Source: Paracyclopina nana
Taxonomy: Eukaryota; Arthropoda; Copepoda; Cyclopoida; Cyclopettidae
DNA length: 64,000 nt
NCBI GenBank assembly: GCA_019096065.1
Contig: JAGUCH010000002.1
Location: forward strand, 5,282,501-5,346,500
Direction of reading: 5' to 3'
A program made the position numbers and the translations under genes. Under the pieces are notes generated by a model, which saw only the letters and a list, made by a program, of their open reading frames with translations, ran no database searches and was not told the DNA's origin. Below are positions 1-54,800 of this stretch, in pieces (positions within the stretch are counted from its first letter, which is position 1; each line of letters begins with the position of its first letter).

Positions 1-3000
1 CAATCAAAGAACAGTCTAAGACTGTTCTTTACATGGGCAAGAGAGAGGACGCAAGAAGGAGTCAGTGACCTGAAAGCAAAGAATACGAGAGACGCATTGA
101 GGAGTGGACTGCCATCGACTCAGGGACCACAATATGTCAGAAGAGCCTCGGAGGGAGGGGCCCAGAGAAGAGACGGTGAGAACTTCGGGAAAAAGTACAA
201 GAAGTTCTATACAAAAAAGGGCAACGAGGTCATCGTGGCAGTTGGCAGCGACACTGAACTGACGGATAGCGAGGACGAGGACGATGAGGATTGTGTCTTC
301 CTAGCAGCACCTAGAGACCCATGTTTCGTCTGCGACAAAAAGGGTCACAAAGGGCTAGCATGTCCGGATTGGAACAATACACCAATCCAAGAAATAAGGG
401 ACAAAATCAAGGAAGCGAAACTTTGCCCTAAATGTATCAAGGGACGACACACGGTTGAAGAATGCAGAGGCAAGGATGCTTGCATACATTGTGGAAGCGA
501 TAAGCACCACTCTAAGTTGCACCAAGGAAAACAAGCGAGGAGAGCATCCGAGGGAGATCTGGCAGTGAGCATGCTGGCAAGAATCGAGGAAAGACTGGCT
601 AAGTTACCTCTATTGGAAAAGAAATTGGAAGCCCTAACGAAAGACGCCTGTACCGCGGTGGCATGCAGCCCTGGAAGCTGCAGCACACCGACAACGGGGG
701 ACGACACCCAAGGAGCCGATGTAATAGCACTGACAGCGGGGGACGCAAAATCATGGAGGACACTACCAATAGAAGTAGCATCAAACAAAAACTTCACAGA
801 TGCGGTGTCAATAAACATGGTTCTTGACGAAGGATCCAGCCTCACGATAATAGACCCAGGACTTAAAGATGAGTTGGGACTTCAAGGGAAGGAAGAAACA
901 CTCCGAGTGCACGTTGTTGGAGACAACCAGACAATATCGAAAAGGTCAACGGCAACGACAGTGTACGTCAGGGCTGTGGGAGGAAGAAAATGGTTCGAAC
1001 TACGAGCAAAAACGTTCGGACTACCGGCTGCAATCGAACCTGTGGACCCAAACGAAATTAAGGGATCGTACACAGAAATCCAAAAGATCAAATTCCCAAG
1101 ACCAGTTGAAGGACCAGTCCGGATGCTGCTAGGCTTTGACAACCTGCAGCTGATGAGAAGCATCCAGGACATCTATGTGGAAAATGGACCACTTGTTCGA
1201 AGGACACCGCTGGGCTGGACAATGCTATACCACCCAAAGGCCGGAGGATACGAAGCAGCAATGCTAATGAGTGATTGGAGCCAGTTCAATGCGTCCACAG
1301 CAATGAGGGATAGCCAACTGCAGTTCCTGCTGGACAGGAGCATGGGCATCGAGGCACTGGGCATTGACAGAGATGAAAAAAGATCGAAACGGCTAACACT
1401 GGCTGAAGAGACAGCCTTGAAAAAGATGCAGGAAAGCATAACGAGGGACGAAAATGGACATTACGTCGTGGACATTCCATGGATAGAAGAGACTCCAAAT
1501 CTACCAAAGAACTGGGCACAGGCGAAAACAATTCAAAAAGGAATTGACATGACCCACAAAAGCGACCCGGAGGTGGAAAAGGCAGTCAAAGAGACTATGA
1601 AAGACTACATGGAAAAAGGCATAATAGAAAGAGTACCAGAACAGGAGATCAAGAATAGCTTCTTCCTCACCTTCTTCTGTGTCCCGAAAAGAACAAGTCT
1701 AACCACGAAGTTCCGCTTTGTGTACAACGCCGCTCAAAAGTTCGAAGGAGTGAGCATCAACGATGCACAGTACACTGGCCCCAACTTCCTGGAAGACATA
1801 TATGACGTACTACTCAAGTTCAGAGTCGGGGATGTGGCCGTGGCTGCGGACATCGAAAAGATGTATCTAATGGTGGGAGTGCCTGAAAAAGATAGAAAAT
1901 TCCTGAGGATTTGGGTCTTTGGAGAACCCTACCAATTCAAGAGATGGCCATTCGGGCTGAGGGCAGCACCGAGCGTGGCAAACTTTGTGGTGAAACATCA
2001 CCTCCACAAATACGGATCACCGGAACTAGTCAAGCACATCCAGATATACATGGATGACTTGATTGTGGCATTTCCGGACAAAGACACGGCCATCAGAGTT
2101 ACGCTGGAAGCCAAGGAACTGTTAGCGCAGTGCGGAATGCACCTCAGAAAGTTCGTCTCAAATTCGGAGGAAGTATTGAAGCACATACCACTGGAGCATC
2201 AAGAAAAGTCTCTCACGCTGGGAGGGGAGGAGGATGGCCAAGCTGTCCACTCCACATTGGGAATATCCTGGAACACAAAGAGTGACAAATTAGGCTACAA
2301 ATTCGTACAACCGGACATGAAAAAGATAACGAAAAGGACAATACTACAGGAACTCGCAAAGGTGTTCGACCCACTAGGAATGCTGGCACCATTCATGATC
2401 ACGGGAAGAGAGTGCTTTCAATGGATCTGTAAAGCAGAGAAGGAGACGAAAATCAAATGGGATACTGAGCTGACAAAGATTGACAACGCAAACGTCAAAA
2501 AGGCACTGAAAATGTTCGAAAGCTGGATCAAACAACTGAAGCAAGCCAGCAAGGTCAGCTATCCCCGGAAGGTAGCGACCAATATCCAGGACTGCACGTT
2601 ACACATGTGCAGCGACGGATCAGACACAGCCTTTAGTTGTACTGCAAGTGTCCAAGACGAGACAAAGAAGGTAACGCTCCTGACAACAAAGGCGAAATTG
2701 CAGAAGCCCAAAAAGAACACGATACCAAAAACAGAACTATCAGGAGCCTTAATGGCAGCAAGGCTGTCAAATAGACTCAAGGATATGTTCGACATACCAA
2801 AAGAGAGCATCTACTTCTGGGTAGATAACGTCCCAGTACTATGCTGGATACGAAAACCAGGAGTGGAGAGAGAAGTGTTCGTAAGGAACAGGACGATCGA
2901 AATAAGTGATACCACAATGTTGGAAAAGTGGAATCACATCGCAACAGAGGACAATTGTGCTGATCTCCCCTCGAGGGGAGGGACAGTGGACGATCTGATC

Positions 3001-4719
3001 CAGGATAAGAATTATTGGGAGGGCCCAAAGTTTTGGCAATTGCCGGAAAGTGAGTGGCCAAAGTTTGAACTAGAGGTGACAGAAGAAGAATTGGCTGGCA
3101 CCATGGACAAAATCTTCTTGGCATTGGACCCTGGAAGTCCAACCAGACTGAAGGCGGACCAGACAGCTAACATAGTGCACCACAAAGTGAACCTGAACAA
3201 GGAAGTGGGCTTGGCAAAGGCCAGAAAGATCTTTAAGACATACGAACACAGAAAAATCAAGGAAAATGCCTATCGATGGTCAATCCTTGTAAGATCAATT
3301 GCAAGAATAAAGAACCTGCCAGACAAAGAAGACGTACTACCACTGGAACTAGTCGCAAGGACAGTGCGGGACCTGGTGATACTAGGACAGTGGACAACCC
3401 TACAATCAGAGATAACTTACTACGAGAAAAACGGGAAGTGGCAAAACAAGGAAATGAGAAAGTTTGCCCCGGTGTTCGACGATGATGGGATATTGAGATG
3501 TCTCACGAGGAACTGCAAGCAAAAGAACATCCCACAAAGCCGCATTTACCCAATTTGGGTCGAGGATAACTGGGTGTTCAGATTGCTAGCATATCACATA
3601 CACGTTAAGTCAGGACACTTGGCGTTCGATCCATTCTGGCTGAAACTCACAGAGACATTCGGGGGACCAAAAGTACGAAAACTAGCTGCAAGAATCACGA
3701 AGCAGTGCCCACTCTGCACAAAGTGGCACACGAAGACAATGACACAGCTGATGGGGCCTTCACCAGATCTCGAGCTAGAAAGCATAAAACCCTGCAACAA
3801 GCTCGCAATGGACTTCACCGGGAGCTACTCGGTGAGAATGGAGGACAAGAAAATGAAAGCATACATACTTGTAACGGTGTGCCTACAAACAAAACTGGTG
3901 ACCTTGGAAGCAACGTGGGGAAGAACCACGGAGGCACTGATTATGGCGATTGAGAGGATTGGAGCAAGGAGAGGCCCCATTGACACGATGTACTGGGACA
4001 ACGAGGGAGCCTTTGAAAAACTGGGCGTTGAAGTCAACAAGACAGCAAAAAAGAAAAAACAGAAAACGAGTGTAATGAATTGGGCTAAGGTACAGCTCCA
4101 AACAGGCGACAAAGTGCGAGAGTGGTATTTCAACCCTCCACGAGACCACGAAGCGAACGGGATGGCCGAAAGTCATGTCAAGCTAGTTAAACGGGCCCTG
4201 GAAGCCTGTGAACATGGCACACAAGACTGGGAAGTATTCCGGACAGCAGTGGCACTAGCAGAGGAACGAATAAACTGCAGGCCGCTAGCAATCCTAAAAA
4301 CGAATGAAGGCTACGAAGTAATAACTGCTAATCACCTCATCAGTGGACGAGCAGGACAAAACGCATTCCTAGAATTGGGAGCAAGCTTCTCAGAAAAAGT
4401 AAGAGAACTGATACGGATAATGAAACGAAATAATGAAAAATGGATGGATTACTACCTGCAAGCGCTACATTTTCGGGCCAAGTGGGTGGAAGAAAAGTAT
4501 AATCTAAAAGTTGGAGACAAAGTCGTGATAGCAACGGAAGAACTCAAAAAACACAGGCCGAGATGGGCGGTAGGAACTGTGGAAAAAACATTAACAGGTG
4601 AAGACGGTTTTGTTAGGACAGCGATGGTAAGGACAGGAACGGGCAATTTACTGGAAAGGGGCATAAGACAACTGGCCTTATGCTCACAACTCCCACTCAT
4701 CGATGAAGACCAAGCCTGA
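1..4719 (+). CDS. BEL/Pao gag-pol polyprotein (partial at 5' end)
   Basis: The frame is open from base 1, so the true start lies upstream; a TTG at 97 is only the first start-like codon. Counting from there, CCHC-type zinc knuckles lie at about residues 76-140. The aspartic protease motif is at 244-247 and reads D-E-G-S instead of D-S/T-G. The reverse transcriptase has Y-M-D-D at 651-654. A Pao-type RNase H follows with a C-S-D-G-S motif at about 838-842. The integrase has an H2C2-like zinc region near 1180-1220 and a D1239, D1301, E1358 catalytic triad. The C-terminus resembles the DUF5641 region of BEL elements. The product would process itself and copy and integrate the element. No internal stop or frameshift is seen. 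The stop overlaps the start of the next ORF by 17 bases in another frame. Confidence 0.93.
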   Translation, partial: QSKNSLRLFFTWARERTQEGVSDLKAKNTRDALRSGLPSTQGPQYVRRASEGGAQRRDGENFGKKYKKFYTKKGNEVIVAVGSDTELTDSEDEDDEDCVFLAAPRDPCFVCDKKGHKGLACPDWNNTPIQEIRDKIKEAKLCPKCIKGRHTVEECRGKDACIHCGSDKHHSKLHQGKQARRASEGDLAVSMLARIEERLAKLPLLEKKLEALTKDACTAVACSPGSCSTPTTGDDTQGADVIALTAGDAKSWRTLPIEVASNKNFTDAVSINMVLDEGSSLTIIDPGLKDELGLQGKEETLRVHVVGDNQTISKRSTATTVYVRAVGGRKWFELRAKTFGLPAAIEPVDPNEIKGSYTEIQKIKFPRPVEGPVRMLLGFDNLQLMRSIQDIYVENGPLVRRTPLGWTMLYHPKAGGYEAAMLMSDWSQFNASTAMRDSQLQFLLDRSMGIEALGIDRDEKRSKRLTLAEETALKKMQESITRDENGHYVVDIPWIEETPNLPKNWAQAKTIQKGIDMTHKSDPEVEKAVKETMKDYMEKGIIERVPEQEIKNSFFLTFFCVPKRTSLTTKFRFVYNAAQKFEGVSINDAQYTGPNFLEDIYDVLLKFRVGDVAVAADIEKMYLMVGVPEKDRKFLRIWVFGEPYQFKRWPFGLRAAPSVANFVVKHHLHKYGSPELVKHIQIYMDDLIVAFPDKDTAIRVTLEAKELLAQCGMHLRKFVSNSEEVLKHIPLEHQEKSLTLGGEEDGQAVHSTLGISWNTKSDKLGYKFVQPDMKKITKRTILQELAKVFDPLGMLAPFMITGRECFQWICKAEKETKIKWDTELTKIDNANVKKALKMFESWIKQLKQASKVSYPRKVATNIQDCTLHMCSDGSDTAFSCTASVQDETKKVTLLTTKAKLQKPKKNTIPKTELSGALMAARLSNRLKDMFDIPKESIYFWVDNVPVLCWIRKPGVEREVFVRNRTIEISDTTMLEKWNHIATEDNCADLPSRGGTVDDLIQDKNYWEGPKFWQLPESEWPKFELEVTEEELAGTMDKIFLALDPGSPTRLKADQTANIVHHKVNLNKEVGLAKARKIFKTYEHRKIKENAYRWSILVRSIARIKNLPDKEDVLPLELVARTVRDLVILGQWTTLQSEITYYEKNGKWQNKEMRKFAPVFDDDGILRCLTRNCKQKNIPQSRIYPIWVEDNWVFRLLAYHIHVKSGHLAFDPFWLKLTETFGGPKVRKLAARITKQCPLCTKWHTKTMTQLMGPSPDLELESIKPCNKLAMDFTGSYSVRMEDKKMKAYILVTVCLQTKLVTLEATWGRTTEALIMAIERIGARRGPIDTMYWDNEGAFEKLGVEVNKTAKKKKQKTSVMNWAKVQLQTGDKVREWYFNPPRDHEANGMAESHVKLVKRALEACEHGTQDWEVFRTAVALAEERINCRPLAILKTNEGYEVITANHLISGRAGQNAFLELGASFSEKVRELIRIMKRNNEKWMDYYLQALHFRAKWVEEKYNLKVGDKVVIATEELKKHRPRWAVGTVEKTLTGEDGFVRTAMVRTGTGNLLERGIRQLALCSQLPLIDEDQA

Positions 4720-7700
4720 AGACCAAGAAAACCATCGCAAAACAATAACAAAACCGCAAACTATCACCAAGAATCACGCAACCCATCAAAAATCAAGAAT
4801 AATCGAGCTGAGAAAAAACTCAGCAACAAAACTCGCGAAATCACAACAATCGAAAGCGGCGGCGACGAAAGCCGACGAAAATCCAAAATCGAACAAATTG
4901 AAGCGAATCGGACGTTGGATCGTAAGTTTTTTGAGAAACAACGTAACAAAACTACTTAGAGTAACCACCCACAGACATAAAATGCCGAGAAGAAGCCGGA
5001 GCAGAAGCCGGAGCCGAGGCCGAGGTGGAAGTCGAGATAGAAGCCGAGACCGAAGCGAAGAAAGAAAGCCACGGCCAAGAATCGACAGAACCAGCGACTC
5101 CAGGATAAGAGAGGAAGAACGCCGATCCAGAAGGGAAAGGGAGGAAGCAGACAGGAAACGAAAGGAAGAAGAAAAGGAATTCCGGAGAAATTCGGCAACA
5201 CGAGCAAGAGAAGCGAGTGGATCAACCACAAGGAGCCCGAAAACACCGAAACTGGAGCGAAAAAGCCCTGGTAGCTTTACGCAAAGGTTTCGAGATAGGC
5301 TTGGCCCAAGACTCGAGTCAGACTCGCAAGAAAGTCAAGACGAAACTCCAGGACCGAGTGCGAGACAAGCACCGGATTTGAGTCTTGACGAAATGCGAGC
5401 GGATTGGCTGCATCGAACAGGAGCAACATCAGTCTTGTTCTACGATGACTTCAACATGGAAGAGCTAAAGGAGATCTTCCTAAGGTACTATCATGATCCA
5501 TCAGTACTCATTTTAGGGTCAACGCTTAACTTCGGCCCAAGAGATCCAACACTCTCGATGCCAAACAAAGCAAGAAGGAAAGCACAAAAAGTGGACTACC
5601 TAAAAGCGCTTGTCCGAGCAGTGCTGCTGTACAATGGCGTAGCACCCCAAGACGCAATGATGATCTCGCACGGACCACAATACGCCAAGATCGTCGACAA
5701 ATATGGATCGATCCCTACAAGAGCAGCACTGGATGACGAGTCACGGTTGCAGTTGCTGGCAGCTCGACAAATACTGGAGCAGGAAACGCTGGGGTCAATG
5801 GATTCTGGAGAAGAAGTGCGAGAAATATTCAAGGCGTTCGAATCCGGAAAAGGAATGGCACCACTACCGATCATGGCAAAGGCCTTAAACACAGGCAGAC
5901 AAGCTAACACGCTATTCTTGAGACGAACCAGAAACCTGCTCACAAACGAGGATGTAAAAGAACTAGCAGCGGTTAGAAAAGGGATACGAATCTGGACAGA
6001 TGAGACATTAAAGGACGCCCTCGAATGGTTGAAGAAAGCATGCGAACTCAACCAGGAGCCGATCAAATTGGTCCGGATGGAAGACAAAGGAGAACAAACT
6101 CCTCAAGAAATGATGCCAGAGAGAATAGTAGCTCAAACAGTCGAACGGGTCGTGGAAAAGATTGTCTATAAAAACAAGTTGGAAAAGAGCCCTGGTAGCT
6201 CTTCCCAACTTGAACCAATGGACACGACAGAGACAAAAAGGCCTTCATCGGTGGAAATCATCCCAGCAGGTGCAGAAGATGAATACAGGGAGTTCGAATG
6301 GGGAGAAGATGCACCTTATTACCCGTCGGCAAAGAAACGGAGCAAGATGGAAACATTCAAAGAGAACGAGCCAAAACCACTTGGACCTGACGAAGATATC
6401 ATACGAGAAAAAGCAGGCCACTGCCCGGATACCTGGCTAGGAAAACTCCAAGGCGCACACGTATTGGATGAAAATGTGCAAAAAGACTGCAAAGTCCACC
6501 TGTGCCAAGCCACGCAACCTTTCAATAGGGCGGAGTGCGTCAATCGTAAGGAGGAAATATTCCCAGTATTGACCGTAAGGCAAGCGCTAAGACTTGCAAA
6601 GATGGAAAAGGGCTCAACCTTCGATATGCAAGATCCATCCACCAGGAGAACATTCATCTACGGAAGAACTCAGAAGTTCAACGACAATGAATTTGCGTCA
6701 GAACATTGGGTGGAGATCGATGCAAAGCTGAAAAAGACCGGCTTCTACGAAGAAATCATGAACACACGAATCATGACGTGCGATACGGAGGGAATGTCTG
6801 AGAAATACAAGGACTACTACATCAAAGACAAGAACATCACAGTCGGTGAGCATAGAGACATATTTGCCTACGCTCACTTCGGCGCTTCAAACGGAGTCGG
6901 CCTAGGAATAAGGGTCATGTATGTCGGACATGCCATCATCGGAAAAGCCATACCGGACAGAATAAAGAAACTGCTGGGAGACAAGCGCATCTGTAAAATA
7001 CAATTCGGGATTGAAGGAGACCTGAGAAAATTCGCCAGAATTGGAGCGAGGGTGACAAATTGGGTGGACGCGAGGCACTTCGTCATGTTGCTGGACCCGC
7101 AGTCAAATGAAAATCAACCGAAAAGTGGAAAGGATGCGGCGCTCTTCTTCATGGGAGTAGAAAACAAGGTGCAAAAAGTCAACTACAGGATCGAGCACAG
7201 AGCCATCGAGGTAGACAGGTACGAGAAAAAGATACTTTTCTATGACCGACAGGACTTGTTTGCACCGATCGCTGCACTATATATGGTGGCAGCGGGACTA
7301 ACGATGAGGGGAGGAGGCAGCGCAACCTCAGACACGAGAGGTTACATGATGTTCATGCTGAGCCAACTAAGAGATGTGCTGCCAACGTCAGGAGGCAAAC
7401 CCATCAGAGTCTACAACGGACTCCTATCAAGCCCTGGAAGCTTGAAGGGGGAAGTTGACGTGGATGGAGTGAAAATGCTGAAGTACATCGACCCCAGATA
7501 TAGCACAGAAGAACGAGTGGTAAAGAACTTCCAGGACTTCGACAAGGAGTTCAAATACGAAAAGTTCTACCTGAAAGAAGCGGAACAAAAAGCAGTATCA
7601 AGCATGGAAACAGACAACGTGAGGTACCTTGAGTCTTGGCAAGGAGATGAACTGGTGGACGAACTTTTGGCGTCAACCCGAGAACCTCCGGAAGAAAGAT

Positions 7701-8041
7701 CAGACGACTTCAGACTGGTCACACCTCACCCGTGCAGAAAATGCGGCAAGAATTCGCACAAGACCGACAACTGCGTAGCGAAACTTGGATGCGTAATCTG
7801 CTTTTCAAAAAGCCACCGATCGGAGGCATGCCCGTTCTACATGGTCAGGTGCGTACTTTGCAAAGACTTCGGGCACTCAAAGAATGACCACATGACAAGA
7901 GATCTGGTGCAACTTCACGTGAAGAAAAGGTTGATGGCATACGGCCACTGCACTGGAACGGTGACGCTGGACAGAGACTACAGGGAGAAGGTCATCAGAG
8001 AAGGAAGAAATGTCGCGTACAAAAGGGTGGACAAGTGCTAG
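4703..8041 (+). CDS. Retrotransposon ORF2 with DEDDy 3'-5' exonuclease motifs and zinc knuckles
   Basis: 1112 codons in the +1 frame relative to pol, overlapping it by 17 bases. The N-terminal 150 residues are basic and Arg/Ser-rich. Residues 200-450 are of unknown type. Residues about 690-860 carry what looks like a WRN/Egalitarian-type DEDDy exonuclease: D694-x-E696 in a C-D-T-E-G context (motif I), G-I-E-G-D773 (motif II, as in WRN) and Y847-x3-D851 (motif III). Spacings of 79 and 78 residues are close to those of WRN (61 and 73). Three Cys/His knuckles lie at about 1011-1066. No membrane segment is seen, so it is not an envelope. Translation could start at the first ATG by reinitiation. 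Alternatively it could start at the ATG at 4982, just after a splice-acceptor-like CACCCACAG, from a spliced RNA. Motifs are seen; enzymatic activity is inferred. Confidence 0.85.
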   Translation: MKTKPEDQENHRKTITKPQTITKNHATHQKSRIIELRKNSATKLAKSQQSKAAATKADENPKSNKLKRIGRWIVSFLRNNVTKLLRVTTHRHKMPRRSRSRSRSRGRGGSRDRSRDRSEERKPRPRIDRTSDSRIREEERRSRREREEADRKRKEEEKEFRRNSATRAREASGSTTRSPKTPKLERKSPGSFTQRFRDRLGPRLESDSQESQDETPGPSARQAPDLSLDEMRADWLHRTGATSVLFYDDFNMEELKEIFLRYYHDPSVLILGSTLNFGPRDPTLSMPNKARRKAQKVDYLKALVRAVLLYNGVAPQDAMMISHGPQYAKIVDKYGSIPTRAALDDESRLQLLAARQILEQETLGSMDSGEEVREIFKAFESGKGMAPLPIMAKALNTGRQANTLFLRRTRNLLTNEDVKELAAVRKGIRIWTDETLKDALEWLKKACELNQEPIKLVRMEDKGEQTPQEMMPERIVAQTVERVVEKIVYKNKLEKSPGSSSQLEPMDTTETKRPSSVEIIPAGAEDEYREFEWGEDAPYYPSAKKRSKMETFKENEPKPLGPDEDIIREKAGHCPDTWLGKLQGAHVLDENVQKDCKVHLCQATQPFNRAECVNRKEEIFPVLTVRQALRLAKMEKGSTFDMQDPSTRRTFIYGRTQKFNDNEFASEHWVEIDAKLKKTGFYEEIMNTRIMTCDTEGMSEKYKDYYIKDKNITVGEHRDIFAYAHFGASNGVGLGIRVMYVGHAIIGKAIPDRIKKLLGDKRICKIQFGIEGDLRKFARIGARVTNWVDARHFVMLLDPQSNENQPKSGKDAALFFMGVENKVQKVNYRIEHRAIEVDRYEKKILFYDRQDLFAPIAALYMVAAGLTMRGGGSATSDTRGYMMFMLSQLRDVLPTSGGKPIRVYNGLLSSPGSLKGEVDVDGVKMLKYIDPRYSTEERVVKNFQDFDKEFKYEKFYLKEAEQKAVSSMETDNVRYLESWQGDELVDELLASTREPPEERSDDFRLVTPHPCRKCGKNSHKTDNCVAKLGCVICFSKSHRSEACPFYMVRCVLCKDFGHSKNDHMTRDLVQLHVKKRLMAYGHCTGTVTLDRDYREKVIREGRNVAYKRVDKC

Positions 8042-8156: not shown

Positions 8157-8166
8157 CAAGGGGGAC
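8157..8166 (+). other. Polypurine tract
   Basis: A purine-rich run (AAGGGGGA) sits immediately before the TGTTG start of the LTR, in the position of the plus-strand priming site of LTR retrotransposons. Confidence 0.7.
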
Positions 8167-8418
8167 TGTTGAGATGGAGCAGAGGATTGCGAGACGCCGT
8201 CAACAGCAGCTGAGTCCGCGGAAAATAGATGTCAACTGTCATTTTCCCGCGTATATATTTATCAGTTACTTTCTAGATTTCATTTGATACAGACAATAAA
8301 ACGTCTTTTTATCGAGATCTCGAGAGTTTCTATTGCTGCATTCAAAGTGATTCACATCCTTTATTCGACTGTCATTCATCATACGTTTGATTAGTTGTAC
8401 AGGTGGACCCTTGCAACA
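8167..8418 (+). repeat. 3' LTR of the BEL/Pao element
   Basis: About 252 bp, bounded by TGTTG and CAACA, a perfect 5-bp inverted terminal repeat. It contains a TATA-like GTATATATTT at 8251 and a polyadenylation signal AATAAA at 8295, in the order expected for U3-R. The right boundary is chosen from the inverted repeat because the partner LTR is outside the window. Confidence 0.75.
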
Positions 8419-9151
8419 AAAACCTACCTAGTATTCATTCTACCCAAATTGTCATTTTAGCATTACATTTTAATCAATAAAAAGCGAGCATATCGAATGT
8501 GTTCGAGCCAATTATTGCATATCAATATGCATGTACTAGTAGAGCCCGCCTTTAAGTCAATATCAATAGTTGCTCTTTGCTTCACAGAGCCCTTCAAGCG
8601 AACCTGCTGTAGTTGCTGCATGAAACGTTAAATGCTGAAACTACCGCAAGCAACATATACAGTCAGACAATTATCATCGTATGTGAAAATAATAGTATTG
8701 CTGCCGTTAATGTACCTTCATTTAAAAAATTGGGAAATAACAACGCGTCATTAGCTGATGAAAAGGTTTGATGAAATGTCGCGTATCAGTAGAGAAGAAG
8801 AAAAAGAACGCGAAATATTCGAGAATCGACTCGATCGAGAAGATGGGAATTTCATCAGAACAGGTTTAAAGGTCTGCCAGCGAGCCAATCAGCATCGAGG
8901 AAAGGTCTCGACGTCAAACAGCGTTCGCCAATCAGAAAATGCCACAACGACACACGAGCATGACACAAGTAACGCAAGGACAGGAACTGTGATAGAATTA
9001 CATCAGACGACTGAAGAGAATAATCCAGGAGGAGATTGAGGGAGGCCAGAGCTCAATCGTGAATGCAATATCGAGCCGTCAAGACACTCGAGAAGTTAAG
9101 AGAGGTGGAAAAAGTGTCGAGTACAAATATTAGCCTGGATAAGCACACACC
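8419..9151 (+). other. Upstream region of XBP1
   Basis: No convincing gene. It should hold the XBP1 promoter and 5' leader. A 93-codon Glu/Arg-rich ORF (8758-9039) lies in the presumed leader; it has no recognisable similarity and may be a chance or upstream ORF. Confidence 0.5.
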
Positions 9152-10165
9152 ATGAAGAAGTCGAGTATCTCTCTCCCGGCCAAGACGATCACCATTCGCC
9201 CATCAACGCAGACGTTTTCGCTAGCCAAGAGCCAACAGCAGCAACAGCAAATAATCGTCATCCCACAAAGCATGTTGGTCAACGGCTGCATCTCTGCAAA
9301 AGACTTGAAAACCATCATCAACTCAGACAAGGAGCAACAACCCTCCATCAAGACCATGGAGAACAGAGAGAGCCTTAAGCGGCCAGGCTCATCCGACAGC
9401 TGCTACGGATCAGACAGTGAAATCAGCGAATCGTCAGAAAAATCTGTAAGAAAACGCGCAAACCTCGATCACTTGTCACCCGAGGAGAAGCTCATGAGAA
9501 GGAAGCTAAAAAACAGGGTAGCAGCGCAAAACGCACGGGACAAGAAACGCGTCAAATTCGAGGAAATGGAGGGCGAGCTACAAAGGCTTAAGGTAAACAA
9601 TAGAAGCATTTTCCGTCTGTCGCATACTCACGCAAAGTTTCTCCGTTTAGGCCCACGCCAAAGCATTAGAGCTGAAAAACGCAGAACTGGTGGCAATCAA
9701 CCAACGCTTGGTGGCTCAAAACGACGCCTTGCTCTCTTCGGAGGCCACTGTCAGAGGCCAAGAGGCCGTCGGTCCACTTGTCACGCCTTGCCAACCCCCT
9801 GAGTCAGCAGAACTCACTAGTGAACCTCAGCAGCAGGATCAGGGTCGGCTCGTGGCAGGTGGGTCAACAGTCTCGACAGCCTCACTGATGGCAGCCTCCA
9901 AGTTGTTGCTCGGCATCCTCAAGGCCAACAGGCGACAGAAGAAGTTGCCAATCAAGAAGCGGGCTCGATGGCCGACGTAGTGGACAGCCTCGCCATCAAG
10001 TCTGAGGATTTCGAAGAGGACGATGCTAAAGCGTGCGAGCAAATTCTAGACAAGTTCCTCGAAATGACGCATGAAGCCCCTGATGCTACACCTACCATCT
10101 TGGACACAGCCTGGGAGGAGACTTTTAGCGATCTTTTCCCCGAGTTGGGCGAATGCACCTTTTGA
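9152..10165 (+). CDS. Xbp1: X-box binding protein 1 (bZIP unfolded-protein-response factor)
   Basis: Exon 1 is 9152-9592 and exon 2 starts at 9651 (58-bp GT-AG intron, phase 0). The bZIP basic region reads R-R-K-L-K-N-R-V-A-A-Q-N-A-R-D-K-K-R, the XBP1 signature, and is followed by a leucine zipper that crosses the intron. A poly-Gln run is near the N-terminus. Unspliced mRNA stops at 9980 (256 aa, hydrophobic C-terminal stretch). If the 23-nt IRE1 intron at 9808-9830 is removed, the frame shifts and runs to 10165 (310 aa), ending in an acidic-aromatic activation-type tail with W-E-E-T-F-S-D-L-F. By family knowledge the short form is a weak regulator. The long form activates ER chaperone and secretory genes after IRE1 splicing in the cytosol. 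BiP, a classic target, lies 28 kb downstream. Confidence 0.95.
9800..9840 (+). promoter_or_regulatory. IRE1 splice-site hairpin pair and 23-nt unconventional intron
   Basis: The left hairpin has a 5-bp stem TGAGT/ACTCA (9800-9804 with 9812-9816) around the 7-base loop CAGCAGA. The right hairpin has a CCT/AGG stem around the loop CAGCAGC (9828-9834). Both loops fit the IRE1 consensus CNG-CNGN, with cleavage after the third base (after 9807 and after 9830). The excised 23 nt has the length known for Drosophila and gives exactly the shift needed to join the two XBP1 frames. Confidence 0.93.
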
Positions 10166-10257: not shown

Positions 10258-10932
10258 AAATCCGCAAACTTGGTCCATGCTTGAGTACTTCGTGTACGAC
10301 ATAAAGATTGGAATTATGAAAAAACAGTACAGCTTGTAAAGCCGATCGAGGGTACTGTATCTATGCAAAATGGAAATGGAACTGAGCTCGCTGGTCTGTC
10401 TTCATGATGCTCAGATTTTTCAACATTTTGCTGCCATAGAAAAGCTTTTTAAGCTTAAGGCACAGCCACAATTTTTAACAGCTAAGAGTTTAGCCAAGAC
10501 CTATAGTCATTCTTTTGCATATTACAAAGCATTCAACTAATGGTAATTAGTTTTCTTGTCTTCCAAAATAGCTTATATATCATGGCTCCGTTTGGCTTTT
10601 AGTCCTCTGATGCCTGAAAATGTTACCGTCAGTTCACAGATCCTAATTAGCTTGCTTAATTTGCTGTAATCTAGGTCTAATCTAAATCAGCATTTAGTAG
10701 GGCGATCTTAATCCTGGTCCTATTTTCATAGTTCTGAATTTTTTAAGCATAGTTTGCATTTCACCAGAAGTTATGTTAACCGGTTACATATCATCTGCAT
10801 GCTAAGATTTTATGCGACAGTAGGGCCTCACATGCGCCGTAAGTATGATGGCTTTGTTGCTTGGATACTCTCTTTTTTAAGACGATTACGATTTTCAAGC
10901 AGGCCTCAGTGAGCAATAGCATACAAAACCAT
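10258..10932 (+). other. Intergenic, XBP1 to receptor-like gene
   Basis: AT-rich, with no ORF or repeat I can support. It may hold upstream exons or the promoter of the next gene. Confidence 0.5.
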
Positions 10933-11963
10933 ATGGACGAAGACTCAAGTTCACCCGAGGAAATCAAGGACATTTTCTGCGGCAACGCACTCTTTGCGAT
11001 AGCTTGGTCAACGTTTTTTACGTTGACCCAAGTCACAAGCGATACCCTTCTAGCCACGATTATTTGCTACGAGTTTTTCGCCGGCGACCCCCAAAAAAGA
11101 ACGATCCTCAACCGACTGCACTCTTTTATGGCCATGAGCACTCTGGGCGTATCTGTAAGCCAAGGCTCAGTTCTCGTCATCCGACCGTTGACTGGCCCCC
11201 TCAACGAATTGGTTATAGTAGCCGTGTTTGACCTCCCCAGAATGGCATTTTCCTACTGCAACACGCTATGCTTAATGGAAAAATTCGTCCTAAAATGGCT
11301 GAGCATTGTGCTATGGAAAAGGATACCCCCAATCAATGATGAATTCTTCTCAACTTTCTTCTTGAGCCTCAACCTGCTCATAAGTCTGGGCTTGACACTG
11401 ATTAGAAACGCGGGGTTTCTTGGGGTCAGCGGTGGAATCTCAATAGTGCTGAGCGGCAAAGAAAGAACCAATGACCAAAACTTGCCAAGCTTTCCGTAAG
11501 TCTGATAATTTTCACCAAAAAGTTAGTCCTTTCTGTGCCATTACTTTTAAGCTGATCTTTAAGGGTCTTTGTCTGGGTGATTGGCATCGCTTGCATCATT
11601 TACATTCTTCTTGGTCTGCATTTGGCTCTGCGAAATGTGATTAAAGGCCATTCCAGCAACGCCGTAGAGACGCCTGCAGAAATGGGCCAAGTGGGAAACC
11701 ATTACAACAACCAGGGATCAAACGATAGCTTATTCAGTCCTATGGTTCATGCTTTCGTGGCTTCGTCAATTATCTATACGCTTCTCGCGCATAACTTCTT
11801 GGCTACAAGCAACTTCTTGTTGAATGCCATTTTTAAGTTCATCATTCCGTATGTAATTTTCACTCTAGGTGTACCCTTGATCATTTGCCAGCAAAAGCCT
11901 GCAATTCTAAATTATTTGCGGTCAAGCCTGGAGAAAATGTTGCGGAGATTCCGTTGCAAATAA
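10933..11963 (+). CDS. Seven-helix receptor-like membrane protein
   Basis: Two exons, 10933-11495 and 11564-11963 (68-bp intron, phase 2), give about 320 aa if the ATG at 10933 is used. The frame is open further upstream to a stop at 10846, so a 5' exon is possible. Seven hydrophobic stretches can be counted: five follow in exon 1 to early exon 2 and two more near the end. The second segment is preceded by the short polar motif G-D-P-Q-K-R-T, which looks like a conserved loop. The C-terminus is basic. It could be a chemoreceptor or an arthropod-specific GPCR-like family; I do not recognise the family. No signal peptide. Function unknown. Confidence 0.6.
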
Positions 11964-45896: not shown

Positions 45897-48800
45897 ATGG
45901 AGGACTCCAAGAGTGATGTTGAAAGCGAAGACTCAGAGAAGGACGAAAATTACTGCTACAAGTGTCAGGGGGATGTCGGCCACCTAATTGACAATTGTCC
46001 CAACATGAGGTGCTTGCAATGCGACCAGTTTGGCCACATTCAGAACAATTGCCGTAGCATTTTCTGCCAGCATTGCAAAATTTGGAATTCTGGTCATGCC
46101 ACTGACACTTGCCCCAACTTGGCAATTGAATCTAAATCTGACCTTTCACCAGCTGATGTCAATCGATCTCAGGACAGTGAGTTAGATGAGAAAGAGGGCG
46201 AGGAGCTTTACTGTGACATATGTCAAGAGGAGACTCATGTTGCGATAGATTGTCCTCTGCAAACATGCTTAAACTGCCAAAAGCGTGGCCACATCAAAAT
46301 TGCCTGCCCAGAATTGAAAGCTGCACCTTCAATTGATACTGAATCACGAATCAAGATAAGAAGTGACTTGTTTCTTAGTTCATCTTCAACAACTCAAACT
46401 GCTGCTCCGCTTGTGGGTGTAGCCACAAATACATTGAATGAAGCCATTGATCTCATCAATCAGGGGGAAGAAGTAACCTCAACTTTGCCAATTACCAGCA
46501 CAATCATGCCTCAACAAAAGCCAGCCAAAAAAGTGAAGAAAAAACTCCCGAAAAAGCAGGCAAAAAAGCAGGAAGCACCCATAGTGGCCAAGTCTGATGA
46601 CACTTCTTCTGATGTGTCATTGAGTTCTGTCGAATCAAGTAAAAGACCAATCACAAAATCAAAACTCAAACCTGTTAGGAAGGCATCCTCAACAGGACCA
46701 AGGGAAAAACAGAGGTCACCCCTACCAAAAGGTACAAGCAATGCATTTGATCAACAAAATCCTGGGGAAGAACTAAAACATCTTGAGAGAAACCTTTCAA
46801 GTGGTGAATGCTCCAGGAGTCCATCAGGAAAAAGAGCTCAGATTAGAACAGAAAAAAGGAGCTCTACTAGTGCTTTCCCAAAAAGTAGATCAAGAAGCCC
46901 AACAACTTCGGGAGTTCGGCTACGGTATAAGTCAAGAAGTCCTAAAAGCTCTTCTTATCCTAGAAGTAGGTCTAAAAGTCCAACCACTTCCAGAGCATGG
47001 CTCAGGAGCCGGTCAAGAAGCCCAAAAAGCAGGACAAAGAGTCCAACAAGTTCAAGAGATTGCCCTTTGCAAAGAACAAGAGCTTGGCCTAGAAGTAGAT
47101 CAAGGCAGAGATATGCCGTTAAAGGTCATCACCATAGGTACCGTTCAAGATCCAGAAGTTGGAGCTCTGAAAGGACAAGAGGACAAGATTCTGTAAGGAG
47201 TCCCACATTTGGAAGACAATCTTCCTTACGGAGGAGTAGAACTCCTCCATCTGCTGAAAGAGACAAATCTTATGGACCTAAGTCCAGAAGTAGGTCACCA
47301 AGCCATCCCAATAATACAGTTGGCAAGAGGATGAATCATGAAGATCACTTAAAGTTTATGAAGGAAATGGTGAATCCTGGTGCTCAATGTCATCAGAACT
47401 TGATGCCTCTGCTTGGAACTCAGCCTTCTTTGATGCCATATCCACCTCCAATGGCCCAACCTTTAATGACATTAGGAAGTCAACATCATGTACCTATGCC
47501 TGCTGCTGCCACAAGGCTGCCTTTGCTAATTCCTACTCACTCAAGCAATGTTTCTCAAAAACTGGCTCATCATTCTAATTGTGGCCCTCCGTCATCTGAA
47601 AGCACTCCTAGGTCTTCTCCTGTCAATGAAACTTTAACTGGAGAACAACAAGAGAAAATTGACAAGCTGGGCCATCTGTGGGATATGTCTTTTCTTAAGA
47701 CTTCAATCTCACATACAGATACTTTGATCAGCTCATATCTGAGGCTAAAATTCATTCCTGCATGCTGGAGTAAATCAAATGTGATTGATTTCCTCAAAAC
47801 TTGTGAATTGATTCAAGGGGAGACAGTCATCTCTGTGGAAATGAGAAATGAAGAAAAGTGCAATATTGCTGAAGTCAGGCTTGTGTCCAAAACAGCTGCC
47901 TTTATTGCTAAGCAAAAAATTGAACTATCCATCATCAAGCCAGTGACCATGACAGTTGTATTTCACCCTAAGGAATTTATTCCCAATGAGCTTAATCTGA
48001 AGAACTATTATCATAACATCAAGGTCAAGCAGGCAGGAGTTGTGTCCCATTTCAGAGCAGTGCCTGTCATGTGTGCCACTATTTGTATAGACTTAAGGTT
48101 TGGACAGTTTATTGAGAACCTGAGTATTACTCTTGAAAACAAGACTTTATTGTATTCTGGGAACACTGGATCTGCCCATGAGTTTTTGGCTGCTGTTGCT
48201 CTCATTCTACAGGAAAATCTTACCACTACAAGTCCTCAAAATATTGCTGAGAAAGTTGTAATCTATTGTGAGACCTATGATAAAATGGCATTGTTCATGC
48301 AGTGGGCCAAAAAGCATAATGATGAAGCTTTCAAAATTTTTGAGGCAATAGTGATTGGTGTCTCACTTGTTGAAAATGTTGAGGCCATTATCAAGAAGAT
48401 CCCAATTCAGGGAAATTTGTCAGTCATCCATCGATCTGCTGCAATTGAAGATGAAATGAAGCTTAGGCATAAGACATTGCATGGATTAACTTTCAAGTCC
48501 TTGGAAGATGTGTTTGCCATGCCATCTGCACAAATACTGCCTTGTTTTGTGAACATTTTTGTGTCCTCAACATTCACAGAGCTGAATGTAATGTTGAATG
48601 ACAATCCCAAGACATTTGTGCTCAGTGACACTAATCTTACCTGCATGAAGACAATTATGAGATACCATTCAATAGACAAGCACACTCTGAAATCTCATGC
48701 CAGCAATGATATTTTGCACTGGTACTCTGTGAAAGAAGGCCTGAAGCAATTTTTCAAGTACCTAGAAGACATGGTTGACTCATTTGGGAGCAGTCGGCTC

Positions 48801-51800
48801 ATTCTTTGCACTTCTTCTCATTGGTTGGTTACAGCTTTCCTCATGAAAATTTGCAGTGAGAACAACCTTGATATGAGCAAAGCATTCATTGGGGCTGTGG
48901 ATGTCTACTCACTTGTGACAGAGTTAAAAAAGAAGGACCTAGTTGTGTCTGGGGCCCAAATTACTTTGAATTGGCCTTTGGGTTATCTAGCTGAGGAATA
49001 TGGATGTGATACAAATGTGCCTCCCATCAAGCTTCTCAGTAACCTGTTCTCTGCTCTTGGTGTGTCATCAAGTGAAGATTTCTCCAAACATTCAAGAGGA
49101 TTTGATGAAATTTTTTCTGGAACCCCTGAAAAATCAAGTAAATTGAATCAGTTGTCTTCGAAACTCTTGATGCCCTTTGGCCATGAGGCATTTAAAGTCA
49201 AACTTGTGTGGCCAAACAGCTGCCCAATCAGTGATATTCTATTGATCCCCACTACTGATGAGCTAGTTCCAATGAAGCTCTCTCTTAAAGAAGAAACCAC
49301 TTACCTGGAAGTTGTCAATGTTGGGAATCAACTTGTTACTGAAATTCCATCTACTCCTTTTCTGCTACCTCAGGCAGCAGTAAGTAATATAGTGCAATTG
49401 ATGGAAAGTGCTCAGAACCACCATGAAAAAGATGCTTTTCTTGACAGTACCCTTGGCATTTCTGTAAGAAAGCAGCTAAATGCACATATTAATCTCAACC
49501 CTGCACCCTGCAATGGAGGTCAACGAGTTGCTCCTGAGATCAATACCTCTGAGTACATCAACTTGGACCCCAACTTCTACACATTCTACTACCTCTCCTC
49601 TAGATTGTTTTTATGTGAAAATGATGTGGTGGGATGTCAAATTTATCTCCTTAACATCTTTGAGGACAATGCTGAATCCAACTTACATGCTACCTATCTT
49701 ATTCCATCAGTAAGCCTTAATATGAAGTGTGTGACATCCAAAAACACAATAGAAGAATTGTTGCAAGAGGAAATAAGTGCTCAATTAAGCAATTTTTTTG
49801 CTGACAAACGTGTTGTAATCATCAGCTTTCGAGCCTATGATGAAATGACTTTTCTTCTCAAGAGTGCCCCAACCATAAAGGACTCAATTCATTTGGTTGC
49901 AGATCTGCAATGGTTTCTGAAGCAGAGTCCTGAGGATCAACCTCTGTCATGGATTGAGTGCGTCCAAGCATTGATTCCACAATCACAACTTAAGAGCAGC
50001 CAATCACTGAAGGAGATAGCTGTCACCTCAAAGAGAGCAATACTTAACTATCTTCCATCAACAATCCCTAAAGTTGCCCTGGCTTCTAGTTACTGTATTC
50101 AGCTAGGAGATCTCCTCAAGCTCAAGGGTTCTGATTCATTGGTCACTATTAAACGGGTAGCAAAAAAACAACAACTAGCCAAGAAGCTTGAAAAGCTAGA
50201 AGCAAAGTCACTTCAACAGTTTTCAACAGTCTATTTGGACCTTGCCTTCATACCTCAGCCTCATGTGTTTACATCTGTCTCTATATTTTGCCCAGAAATA
50301 TCAGAAAAACTGGTCACCACTTTAGCTCTAACCCCGCCTCAACAGTTTTCTGGTGTACAAAAAAAGCAGCATTACAAACTCTCCAAAAAGGGTGAATGGA
50401 TACCTAAAGGACTAATTGAGGAAGATATCTCTGATGTTTGCAGTGTGAGCCAAGCAGACAAATTATTGTGTAGTTTTCTCCTCAAAGTCAAAAAGATTAA
50501 GCCTAATGTGAAGATGGTGCTTTGTGTTCCCTTTGTCAGCTATGTTCACTATATTGCTCTAAACTTCCGAGAGCTCTACAGGAAGTTTGTTGGGTGGATG
50601 GACATATACTCATTGGCAGCAAAAAAGTTCCATGACAGAGACCCTGTCCTAAAGGCTCCCTTTGAGTCGGTCAGTTTTATGAAAGAGTTGCAACTGTCTT
50701 TTTTGAAGCCATCTAGTCAGCTTACCACAGGCTTACCAGCAATGAAGAAAATATTGGAGTCACTTTCTACCCCAGCAACTGTTGAGGAATATGTTAAAGA
50801 AAACTTGAATTGCTTTACATTATCATCTGACACATGCTACTTGCTTGTTTTCATTCAAGCTGATTCCACTATTGTTCAAAGTGGGGAAGAAGTGATAACA
50901 GCCATTTCAGTATACATACCTGATGACAACTGTCAGTCTGCATTTGTGCCCATTAAGCCCAAAAAACAATTTGAGAGGTTCTTTGAAAAGCTACCAAACT
51001 TCAAGAAATCCAAAAATGGAGAGTGGATGTATGTCTGCAAAAGTGACAAGGCCAGAAAGTGCAAGCCAGAATCAGATGCACTGTCATATATTGTTAGCAT
51101 AATGAAGAGAGCACTTGCTGGTACCAATGATAAGGCCTTGGTTCTTCTGAGTTTGGTTAATAAGGGAGGCATTGCCTTAATTCTCAAATCAATGATTGAG
51201 AATAATATTGACCCATCTATCTTCAAACTCATTCATGGTGTGGGTAATGTGCAGACAGCTATTGAACTTGCCTCGTCTAGAGATGGCCGAAAGCCACTGT
51301 CAGAAAAAGATCTTGAAGAGATGCACAAAAAACTTTCCAACAACCCCAGATTTGGTATCTTCAAGAATGGCAATTGCAAAGACCAAGCTAAGGCAGCTGA
51401 GTTGCTCCTAACTAAGAAGCTTGGTGAGAAAAAGCGAAAAGATGAGAGAGAATATGCATACCCATTGCAATCTCCTTACACCAACAATCTACTTCATGAA
51501 AGCAAATTTACTGCATTTCTGAACAGCTTTGACATTTGCCTGGCAGAAAAGTTTTCCAAAAGTAATGCTTCTGCTGTCCAAGTGTCCATTTTAGTAGTCA
51601 TTAAGGGGCTTCTATTCACTGAATCTCCTCTTCATCTGAGACCATGTGTTTCATCTCCTTTATCCTTCAATGCCTTCATTAAAACTGTGAAACCTAGCCA
51701 GTGCTTCATGATCAATGTGACTTGCGATGATTACATTGGCACTCTTGATGCTGGAGCAATCATAGGCTATGGAACTTTGCCTGATGAAAAGAAAATTCAT

Positions 51801-54800
51801 GATGAAATTGTTCTGTCACTAGCTGAAGACAGTTTAAGCATGGAATTATCTGCTCTTCAACCTCAGCAAAGAGGTAAAAGAAAGTCTAAAGTACCAAATT
51901 GTCATGATCCCTGCTTTGAAGAGACATTTGGAAAAATTGTACTGCTTCCAACCAAGAGACCTAGGGAGTCAGTTGGCATGAAGAACCCATCTGTAACCAA
52001 AGAAGAACTCCCAAAAATGACAAAGCCATTTGAAATGAATGCAGGAACTGTTAGTCTGGAGAAGGGAAACATTCCAAAAACACAGACTTACCTTTTTCAG
52101 AGCATAGAAAAATCAAATGAAAAGCATAACCAACCACCAAGCCCAAATGCTCCAAGCAATTCCAACTTGGGTTCATTTCCTGAGGTAAACAAAGCTGATG
52201 GAAATTCGAGTGAAATAACTAAGTCAACTTTTGACGAAAATTCTGTCAACAACAATCCATTGGCAGGTTCAACAAGCACCATATCAGCTGATGTTGAAAC
52301 TGAAAGCAGATTTCCTATTGACTTTCAAGAGCCTGCTGGAAGTAAGTCTAAAACGGATGGTTTGGATCAAATATTCACTGAAGTCAGCATCCCTGCAGAA
52401 ATAAGTGACGAATTAGCTTTATCAGCAGGCACCAGCAATTTTAGCTCAAGTGGCGAAGTGGCCATCTTATCAACAAACAGCTTAGTTGGCTGTTCTGAAA
52501 ACAGTAGTGAGCAAGTGCAGAGAAAATCTGTTTCAGAACAATCCATGAGGTACTGTTTGCCTAAGTTGGACATTGACTGGAAACAATTAAAAGATCAACC
52601 TCAATTCACTGATTATCTGGAGAAGTTACAAATGGATTATGAAACTTATCCAGAGCAACAGTTCCTCATGGAGCTCTATGTGGGCAGCTGCATCTGCATA
52701 AGCAATTCTGAACCTAGTTCTGATGTCATTGACAAGCTGATAGCTGGTTCTATTGCTGCTGCAATTAACAACTCAAAAGACCTTGCAGCATTTGCTTTGG
52801 AGATGCTTGATTTGGGGCTGTGCTCTAACTCAATTGAGTATGTGAAGGCAAAAGATCTCTTGAATCATAGCTTTGATGACTGTGCTCAAGAGTTTGCTAA
52901 TGTTCTTCTGATTTATCTTCACATCCACCATCCTTTAAAATCAATTCCAGATGAGCAAGCTCTTCAGTTCAAACCAGTAATCCTCAAAGAAGACTGTCTA
53001 ATCTTGCTTTCTGAATTCGAACCACTCAAGGAAGGGGTAAATCTTATTCAAGATGAAACTTTGCAATCGGCTTCATTCAGTTGTCAACCTTCCATAAAGA
53101 CTGCATCAGCTGCACCTATGCAAACAAGTTCTAATGGCGCTACTCCTTCTGTTTGCCCAGCAGAAAAGCAACTGGTGCAAGATTCAATTGGCTCTGCTTG
53201 TGGAAAATCACTGCAGAGCTTGGCAAAAGAAAATAATGAAGACCCTATACTTGAAGAATGTCAAAGTGTTGAAAAAGTCATGCCTGAACTGAGTATGAAT
53301 ATAATGGAAGATGGGCTCATAGCTGAACTAAGGACATGTCCCTCAAATCTCGAAAATGCTGTCTCTCCCTCAAATCTTGAAAATACTGTCTCTCCCTCAA
53401 ATCTTGAAAATGCTGTCTCACTAATTGAAGAGCACAATGAATCTCCATCTCTGCAATCTAGGGGCAAACAATGTTGCCTTGACTTGACAGAAGTAAGGAT
53501 GCTAACACAGCTCTGCCAAGGCTCAGAAAGTATTTGCTTTGGGGAAGTGGCTGAAGTAACAGCAAATGGTCTAAGAATCAGGACCCAAGAAGAACTCTTT
53601 GATGTGCTGCAAATTCAAGTTTTCTATTATGATTCTGTGAAGGTGAAGGATTGTGTGCTATGTTTCATGTTTCAGGGAATGTTCCTTATTTTGGCTCTTA
53701 AAAGCTGCAACACATTCTGTGATACCTTTGGTGGGTTTATTAAGCAGAAGCAAAATAAGGGCAAGGTGGACATAGGAATAATCAAAGAGCAAAAAATTGA
53801 AATTGTGCGACGCCTTCCAGTGGGTAAAATAATTTCAAAGAAGTCACAAGAAGATTTTCCAGGCAGATATGTGATTGTGGTTGTTCAAGATAGAGATATT
53901 AGTTTGGTTGTGGATCACCCTGACTTGAAGCAGCCTCCAATGGAAATTATTGAAGATACAAATCCGTTGATGGTCTTTATGCCAGATTATTTTCCATCAA
54001 TACAAGTTGAGTCTGGATTTTTCCTAAGTGCAAAGCAAGTCTCTATTGCTAGGCCAAAAAGTCAGCAACATGCAACAGAAATTCAAAATAGTGATCTAGA
54101 AGAATTCTCAAAATTCATTACTCATTACTTAAATCAAGAGTGCCACAAAGTCCTTTCCATTGAGTTGACTGATGATGACATTGTTCGTGTTGAAAACATT
54201 TGCAAGACCAAGCGTGTATTTGTTCGCATTCGTGAGAATGGTCAACAACTGCTAGTTTGTGGCCCTAGAGCTGATGTTGTTTTTTTTGAGTCAAATTTCA
54301 AGGCCAATTTGATTACCAATGAAGGCTCAATAGTTCCAGTGTGTAAACAAGAGCCACCATTAGAGCTGAAGAGAGAGAAGCTTTTTGCCACTCAGTCTGA
54401 GAACTCAGTGGATTCAGTTGGAAATGATGAAGACTTGGATACTTGTATGGTGGTCAAAAAACTGCTCCAAGATGAGAGTGGTCATGATTCTTCAATCATT
54501 GTTGATGAAGATGAATGTGTAGCTTTCTGTACTCTTCAGGAACTGCCCAAACCAGTTAGAACCAAGCTGTCCACAGCAAATGATAACTTTCATGAGCTTA
54601 AGATTGGAAAATTTGATGTGAACTCACCTTTTTGTTCACCAATTCATTTGGCAAAAACCTATCAGATCTTAGCACCTGAAGAAAAGGAGTTTCAAGTTAT
54701 TATTGGCAATATTGGAATTATGGTCAGTGATGTCTCTGATGTTTCAGTGTTTCATCTCCTTACCAGCCAAGCAGAAATTGCTGCTGAAGTGATACATGCC

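Follow-up and report, generated by a model that had tools for sequence, protein, structure and literature searches.

Does the second open reading frame of a BEL/Pao retrotransposon in the copepod Paracyclopina nana encode a DEDDy-type 3'-5' exonuclease, and if so, does it belong to the element as a gene? The standard account of an LTR element is gag-pol, to which an env may be added. A first-pass annotation of the locus had read this frame, ORF2, as such an exonuclease. We analyzed the 64,000-nucleotide stretch that holds the locus (contig JAGUCH010000002.1, positions 5,282,501 to 5,346,500), referred to here as the window, together with the related copies in the same genome. The genome itself points to an arthropod: it has 80 matches to Chitin_bind_4, which is mainly a family of arthropod cuticle. 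A nematode host, at first suggested by the genes nearby, was dropped in view of these matches and because nematode cuticle collagen and TTR-52 gave none, in searches run without a positive control.

Structure of the element

The window opens within a BEL/Pao element on the + strand, its position 1 already lying inside the element (Table 1). The ORF1 (pol) frame has its start outside the window, on the upstream side, and is open for 2237 aa overall. Peptidase_A17 (E 5.9e-30) and RVT_1 (E 2.7e-8) scored above the Pfam cut-off and rve (E 3.7e-5) below it, while the zinc-knuckle and aspartic-protease regions gave weak Pfam matches ahead of the reverse transcriptase. Peptidase_A17 is described as most likely the RNase H of the BEL/Pao element in the available text of PMC3985635, and the order RVT_1, Peptidase_A17, rve thus corresponds to the RT-RNase H-integrase order of a BEL/Pao pol. 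The LTR ends (TG...CA) and the short target-site duplication are also those of a BEL/Pao element. The 5' LTR lies outside the window, at window-equivalent positions -2243 to -2009, and is the same as the 3' LTR at 235/235 bases. Because the LTRs are identical and a GGTGG duplication flanks the element, we conclude that the window copy inserted recently; its ORF1 and ORF2 frames are both open. The 3' LTR is preceded by a purine-rich tract, a type of signal expected at that place.

Table 1. Features of the BEL/Pao element, in window positions
Feature	Position	Strand	Remarks
ORF1, 3' part	1..4719	+	Zinc-knuckle, aspartic-protease region, RT with YMDD, RNase H (Peptidase_A17), integrase
ORF2	4703..8041	+	1112 aa from first ATG, no stop; frame +1 to pol
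Arg/Ser-rich N-terminal part, residues 94-200	4982..5302	+	From translation
Central segment, residues 258-334	5474..5704	+	BLAST match in an ORF2 of the sister lineage; without Pfam match
Invariant cysteines C574, C596, C601	6422..6505	+	Ahead of exonuclease domain
DEDDy exonuclease-like domain, residues 640-905	6620..7417	+	Alignment and profile matches
Motif I, D694-x-E696	6782..6790	+	
Motif II, D773 in GIEGD	7019..7021	+	
Motif III, Y847-x3-D851	7241..7255	+	
Three C-terminal zinc knuckles (CCHC, CCHC, CCHH)	7733..7891	+	From aligned ORF2s
Purine-rich tract	8158..8166	+	Ahead of 3' LTR
3' LTR	8167..8401	+	235 bp, TG...CA
Target-site duplication GGTGG	8402..8406	.	5 bp; same five bases left of 5' LTR

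In the interval 8401-9802, about 750 bp downstream of the end of the insertion, there is an ORF that carries a bZIP domain (E 4.5e-7) and looks like XBP1. The insertion could affect the promoter of this gene, or could be polymorphic. Farther along, two ORFs with many hydrophobic segments and no convincing Pfam match lie at 10861-11963, and a single long, apparently intronless open frame of 3313 aa occupies 45897-55838 (+). Its translation shows CCHC-like knuckles towards the N-terminus, several stretches rich in RS, and is CCCH-like at the C-terminus.

Expression and anatomy of ORF2

In the window copy, pol and ORF2 overlap at the first ATG of ORF2, and M94 at 4982 is the second ATG in frame. 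The pol stop of 17 relatives is followed after 26-253 nt by the first in-frame ATG, which may stand in any frame; because these positions vary in this way, we conclude that ORF2 is a separate cistron. ORF2 occurred in all three frames relative to the pol stop among the 21 copies compared, three of them from the sister lineage described below, and we therefore rejected the idea that ORF2 is generally reached from pol by a frameshift or by reading through the stop. By a crude rule, a splice acceptor was present near the ORF2 start in only 2 of 18 copies.

Residues 1-200 of the window ORF2 contain 20% Arg and 17 RS/SR dipeptides, with fewer of these in most other copies. The three cysteines ahead of the exonuclease domain form a possible metal site. 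All twelve Cys/His ligands of the C-terminal zinc knuckles were invariant in 19 aligned ORF2s, the spacing of the second knuckle being variable. Since ORF2 sits behind pol, at the position of env, we considered whether it encodes an envelope-like or cell-transfer protein whose DEDDy likeness is incidental. In a rough hydropathy scan, the 19-residue maximum of the window ORF2 was only 1.41, with no strong transmembrane stretch, while maxima of 0.87-1.82 across the window's lineage and 1.59-1.98 in five sister-lineage ORF2s did reveal moderately hydrophobic stretches in some relatives. The low maximum in the window copy, the zinc knuckles and the EXD2 profile homology with aligned motifs given below all speak against an envelope, which we regard as very improbable.

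Conservation of the DEDDy residues

Residues 694, 696, 773, 847 and 851 of ORF2 are D, E, D, Y and D as annotated, in the contexts TCDTEG, FGIEGDLRKF and FYDRQDLFAP. Their codons fall at 6782-7255, within the annotated interval 6700..7300, and the spacings of 79 residues (D694 to D773) and 78 residues (D773 to D851) were also correct. The GIEGD wording, which had been likened to WRN, is present in the WRN chain aligned by the ORF2 profile.

The 92-Mb genome that holds the window contains 97 matches to ORF2 residues 600-932; after 6 of these were dropped as second pieces of one copy, 91 places remained. When the window ORF2 was aligned with 25 others or pieces of others, each of the five residues was kept in every row covering it. 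In an exonuclease alignment of 25 rows (the window and 24 others, 34-67% identical to the window), the D-x-E of motif I, the D of motif II and the Y-x3-D of motif III occurred in order in all 25. Only 32 of the 266 columns were invariant and all five residues were among them, so the DEDDy signature is more than chance. Three broken copies keep whatever motifs remain visible in their pieces, motif II not being shown in one.

Profile links to EXD2 and WRN

Searched alone, the window ORF2 matched Pfam DNA_pol_A_exo1 with a marginal E of 0.011, below the cut-off. On its own, such a match would be compatible with five residues picked by eye, by chance, in a 1112-aa ORF. The comparison of copies refutes this explanation through the invariance in 25 rows, the profile matches and the behavior of unrelated control proteins, and we consider chance barely credible.

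DNA_pol_A_exo1 was matched at E<=1 by 19 of the 25 rows (best 1.1e-5) and not by the remaining 6. It exceeded the Pfam cut-off in the genome search for L005 (25.3 bits) and the broken copy L008 (27.7 bits); read as a longer ORF, L005 scored 22.4 bits, just below the cut-off, and the whole ORF of L026 had no Pfam match at all. Against solved structures, the 25-row profile gave its best matches to WRN (E 0.034) and EXD2 (E 0.054), which are weak and of the right kind. The clearest link was to an EXD2-like exon of the host, which itself matches EXD2 at 6.7e-19: hhalign aligned it with the 25-row profile at E 1.3e-8, all three motifs falling in register, and with 20% identity to the ORF2 domain over 165 columns. 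Two unrelated proteins used as hhalign controls gave E 0.11 and 0.47. The EXD2-like exon was the closest of three host DEDDy exons compared singly, the other two reaching E 0.041 and 0.057, hardly above the unrelated controls. Pooled into one profile, four host DEDDy exons reached only 49.6% (E 0.00017). The link to EXD2/WRN therefore rests mainly on the EXD2-like exon.

By sequence-profile similarity, the ORF2 domain falls with known DEDDy members and is nearest, by sequence, to the EXD2/WRN branch. Together with the presence of all five residues in every row, these profile links support the annotation of ORF2 as a predicted DEDDy 3'-5' exonuclease.

Selection on ORF2

We calculated dN/dS over ORF2 residues 154-1100 for 44 within-group pairs. 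Synonymous divergence was saturated in 36 of these, and in the 8 with computable dS the ratio was 0.02-0.09, which bears out the earlier suggestion that the open frame is maintained by selection. Seven of the 8 computable pairs had a dS greater than 1.3; L026-L027 was the sole close pair (dS 0.09, ratio 0.06). The exonuclease region had the lowest dN in many pairs, and its dN for L016-L019 was 0.03-0.06 with synonymous sites at or near saturation.

L016-L019, L002-L005 and others are co-resident BEL families between which synonymous sites are saturated and the ORF2 protein is highly conserved. This could mean that the lineages have lived together for a very long time, or that elements have arrived repeatedly from other species.

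Long-term retention under selection would also be expected of a counter-defence nuclease, directed against host silencing RNAs or against the tails that mark transposon RNA. Cellular DEDDy relatives do act in small-RNA pathways, among them mut-7 and the inactive Maelstrom and EXD1, according to the available text of PMC5408684. Of the three host DEDDy exons compared singly, the one closest to ORF2 is instead EXD2-like, and we think a role in counter-defence quite unlikely.

Inheritance of ORF2 with pol

An ORF1-like pol lay upstream on the same strand in 19 of the 20 long loci of the window's lineage (L009-L028). Using the best 150 Peptidase_A17 matches in the genome, we found 44 of 50 distant ORF2 matches with a Peptidase_A17 match 4.3-6.2 kb upstream on the same strand. 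Only 2 of the 41 close-group places were linked in the same comparison, because it was made with these best 150 matches. Overall, 46 of the 91 places were linked; 200 random placements gave 0.91 on average and never more than 4. Counted from pol, 46 of the 150 scored Peptidase_A17 elements were followed within 9 kb by an ORF2 match.

BEL elements abound in the genome, with at least 150 Peptidase_A17 matches and many frames of 2000-3100 aa that are still open. Other third genes may be present in the 104 of the best 150 Peptidase_A17 elements for which the 9 kb downstream gave no ORF2 match.

A tree of the integrase (22 rows, only 3 of them from the sister lineage) and a tree of the exonuclease domain (51 rows) both separated the two lineages with 100/100 support. 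Within the window's lineage, L016-L027 stood apart from the rest with 98/97 in the integrase tree and with 89/83 and 91/90 (unstarred) in the exonuclease tree. Some finer branches differed between the trees, and long branches meet, as the tool warned. The shared main splits indicate that ORF2 travelled with pol. ORF2 is common to dozens of relatives in the same genome, in intact or disarmed form, and judged from these sequences it looks like an old, inherited gene.

ORF2 residues 560-1112 had no relative outside the Paracyclopina nana genome among 6672 candidates, and a profile of 19 ORF2s found none elsewhere among 7998 candidates scored. Viral contigs gave 18 and 1 pattern matches, none of which was confirmed as an ORF2 relative, and phages gave no relative. 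These searches require shared 5-residue words and diverged ORF2s may escape them. As a positive control, ORF1 residues 430-1000 had 275 matches in the same protein collection (best E 8.8e-75), with identities of at most 34% among the 120 matches listed, which carry PF05380. The collection therefore contains BEL elements, none of them, among the matches listed, near the window's lineage.

A sister lineage without the active site

Fifty of the 91 places formed a distant group with 24-35% identity. Profile against profile, 25 distant copies matched the close group at 99.8% (E 3.7e-28), and in five long ORFs of this group BLAST matches spanned the exonuclease domain and reached the zinc knuckles; the distant group is therefore homologous to ORF2. 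In the 26 of the 50 copies that were read, D694 was kept in 0, E696 in 4, D773 in 5, Y847 in 16 and D851 in 0, the alignment being unsure around motif III. None of the 50 distant matches contained a stop inside the matched stretch, and the 22 closest pairs had pN/pS values of 0.04-0.32. ORF2 is thus retained in the sister lineage without, as far as its sequences indicate, the catalytic residues. Against solved structures, the best match of the sister profile was EXD2 at a non-significant E of 0.073, followed by unrelated designed ankyrin repeats; the Pfam exonuclease family was absent from the families matched by 25 sister-lineage copies, and the host EXD2 exon was matched at E 0.00022 over 46 columns. 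The first-pass annotation had named a lack of the five residues in other copies of the element as grounds for refutation. This applies in part, to the other families of the sister lineage, which lost the residues and kept ORF2, and does not apply to the lineage of the window element. Loss of the active site would be the simpler history on the unrooted tree because the nearest cellular relatives are catalytic.

As the 26 sister copies read lack the active site, ORF2 as a whole does not depend on catalysis. This invites comparison with CERV of Cer1, a C. elegans LTR element; CERV is required for export of the genomic RNA and is not expected to have enzyme activity, according to the available text of PMC10309623. 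ORF2p could likewise be an RNA-export or packaging factor, using a nuclease fold for RNA binding only, even in the window's lineage, and its Arg/Ser-rich N-terminus and zinc knuckles would suit such a role. Pure RNA binding leaves the invariance of the five catalytic residues in the window's lineage unexplained, however, and we consider it unlikely that export or packaging is the whole function there.

Proposed function

We think it likely that ORF2 is an inherited accessory gene of a large BEL/Pao lineage, encoding a nucleic-acid-binding protein with a DEDDy exonuclease that is most likely active in the window's lineage. This reading draws on the build of ORF2, the active site that never varies in the window's lineage, purifying selection, co-inheritance with pol and the EXD2 profile homology; from these we infer how the protein folds, that it is catalytic, what it acts on and at which step of the element's life cycle. 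ORF2p would consist of an Arg/Ser-rich N-terminus, a central domain, a DEDDy domain of EXD2/WRN type and three zinc knuckles. In the window's lineage, the protein would trim 3'-5' by two-metal catalysis while the zinc knuckles hold the substrate, the likeliest candidate for which would be the 3' ends of the element's own RNA or cDNA. In the sister lineage, ORF2p would be a pseudo-exonuclease. Nucleic-acid binding is probably the core job of ORF2p, because the sister lineage keeps the protein without the catalytic residues.

More tentatively, a BEL/Pao lineage may have captured an EXD2-like exonuclease once, long ago, and then split into catalytic and pseudo-exonuclease branches (compare Maelstrom and EXD1), the protein managing the element's RNA or countering silencing. 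We hold this history to be possible and rather doubtful.

Comparison with known systems

EXD2 and WRN share with ORF2 the motifs in register and supplied its best matches among solved structures and host exons. To our knowledge, these are cellular proteins without zinc knuckles of this kind.

The first-pass annotation had held that no DEDDy exonuclease was known from an arthropod BEL/Pao element. This agrees with the open-licence literature in PubMed Central, where, among the matches listed, we found no DEDDy ORF in any BEL/Pao element; the main text of one BEL/Pao survey (PMC3118150) does not contain the word exonuclease. In LTR elements more broadly, a DnaQ-like exonuclease was termed a well-known accessory domain in 2019, the rotifer work being among that cited (PMC6338049, available text). 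The DEDDy ORF3s that the annotation mentioned in rotifers are on record: Rodriguez et al. 2017 described them in the Juno and Vesta LTR elements and the Athena Penelope-like elements of bdelloid rotifers (PMC5408684, as are the rotifer details below, from its available text). Like ORF2, these place a DEDDy-type exonuclease on an extra ORF of a retroelement. Compared by description only, Juno and Vesta belong to element clades other than BEL/Pao and to another host phylum. The rotifer ORF3 motif is changed to DEED, whereas ORF2 has the canonical D, E, D, Y, D. The extra rotifer ORFs were described as evolving within the genome without significant departure from neutrality. Vesta2 and Vesta5 carry a Cys-His-Cys motif, while ORF2 bears three knuckles of CCHC/CCHH type and, in its sister lineage, is missing the active site.

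In two species, Dada DNA transposons are likewise mobile elements with a DEDDy exonuclease domain, for which 3'-end processing was proposed (PMC3706591, available text). There the domain sits as an insertion within a DDE transposase, and here it forms a separate ORF of a retrotransposon. CERV has a G-protein-like domain for which activity is not expected, with no nuclease likeness mentioned in the available text, and Cer1 is a Gypsy/Ty3 element (PMC10309623). The sister lineage finds its parallel in Maelstrom and EXD1, two non-catalytic proteins of the cell with a DEDD fold (PMC5408684, available text); these retain a nuclease-like domain and have lost the active site, and they are host proteins, compared here by description only.

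In dozens of copies from widely diverged families of one genome, BEL/Pao elements thus carry a further gene, clearly under purifying selection, that resembles an enzyme for the 3' ends of RNA or DNA. Its apparently active and disarmed branches occur side by side, which opens the role of catalysis to direct comparison.
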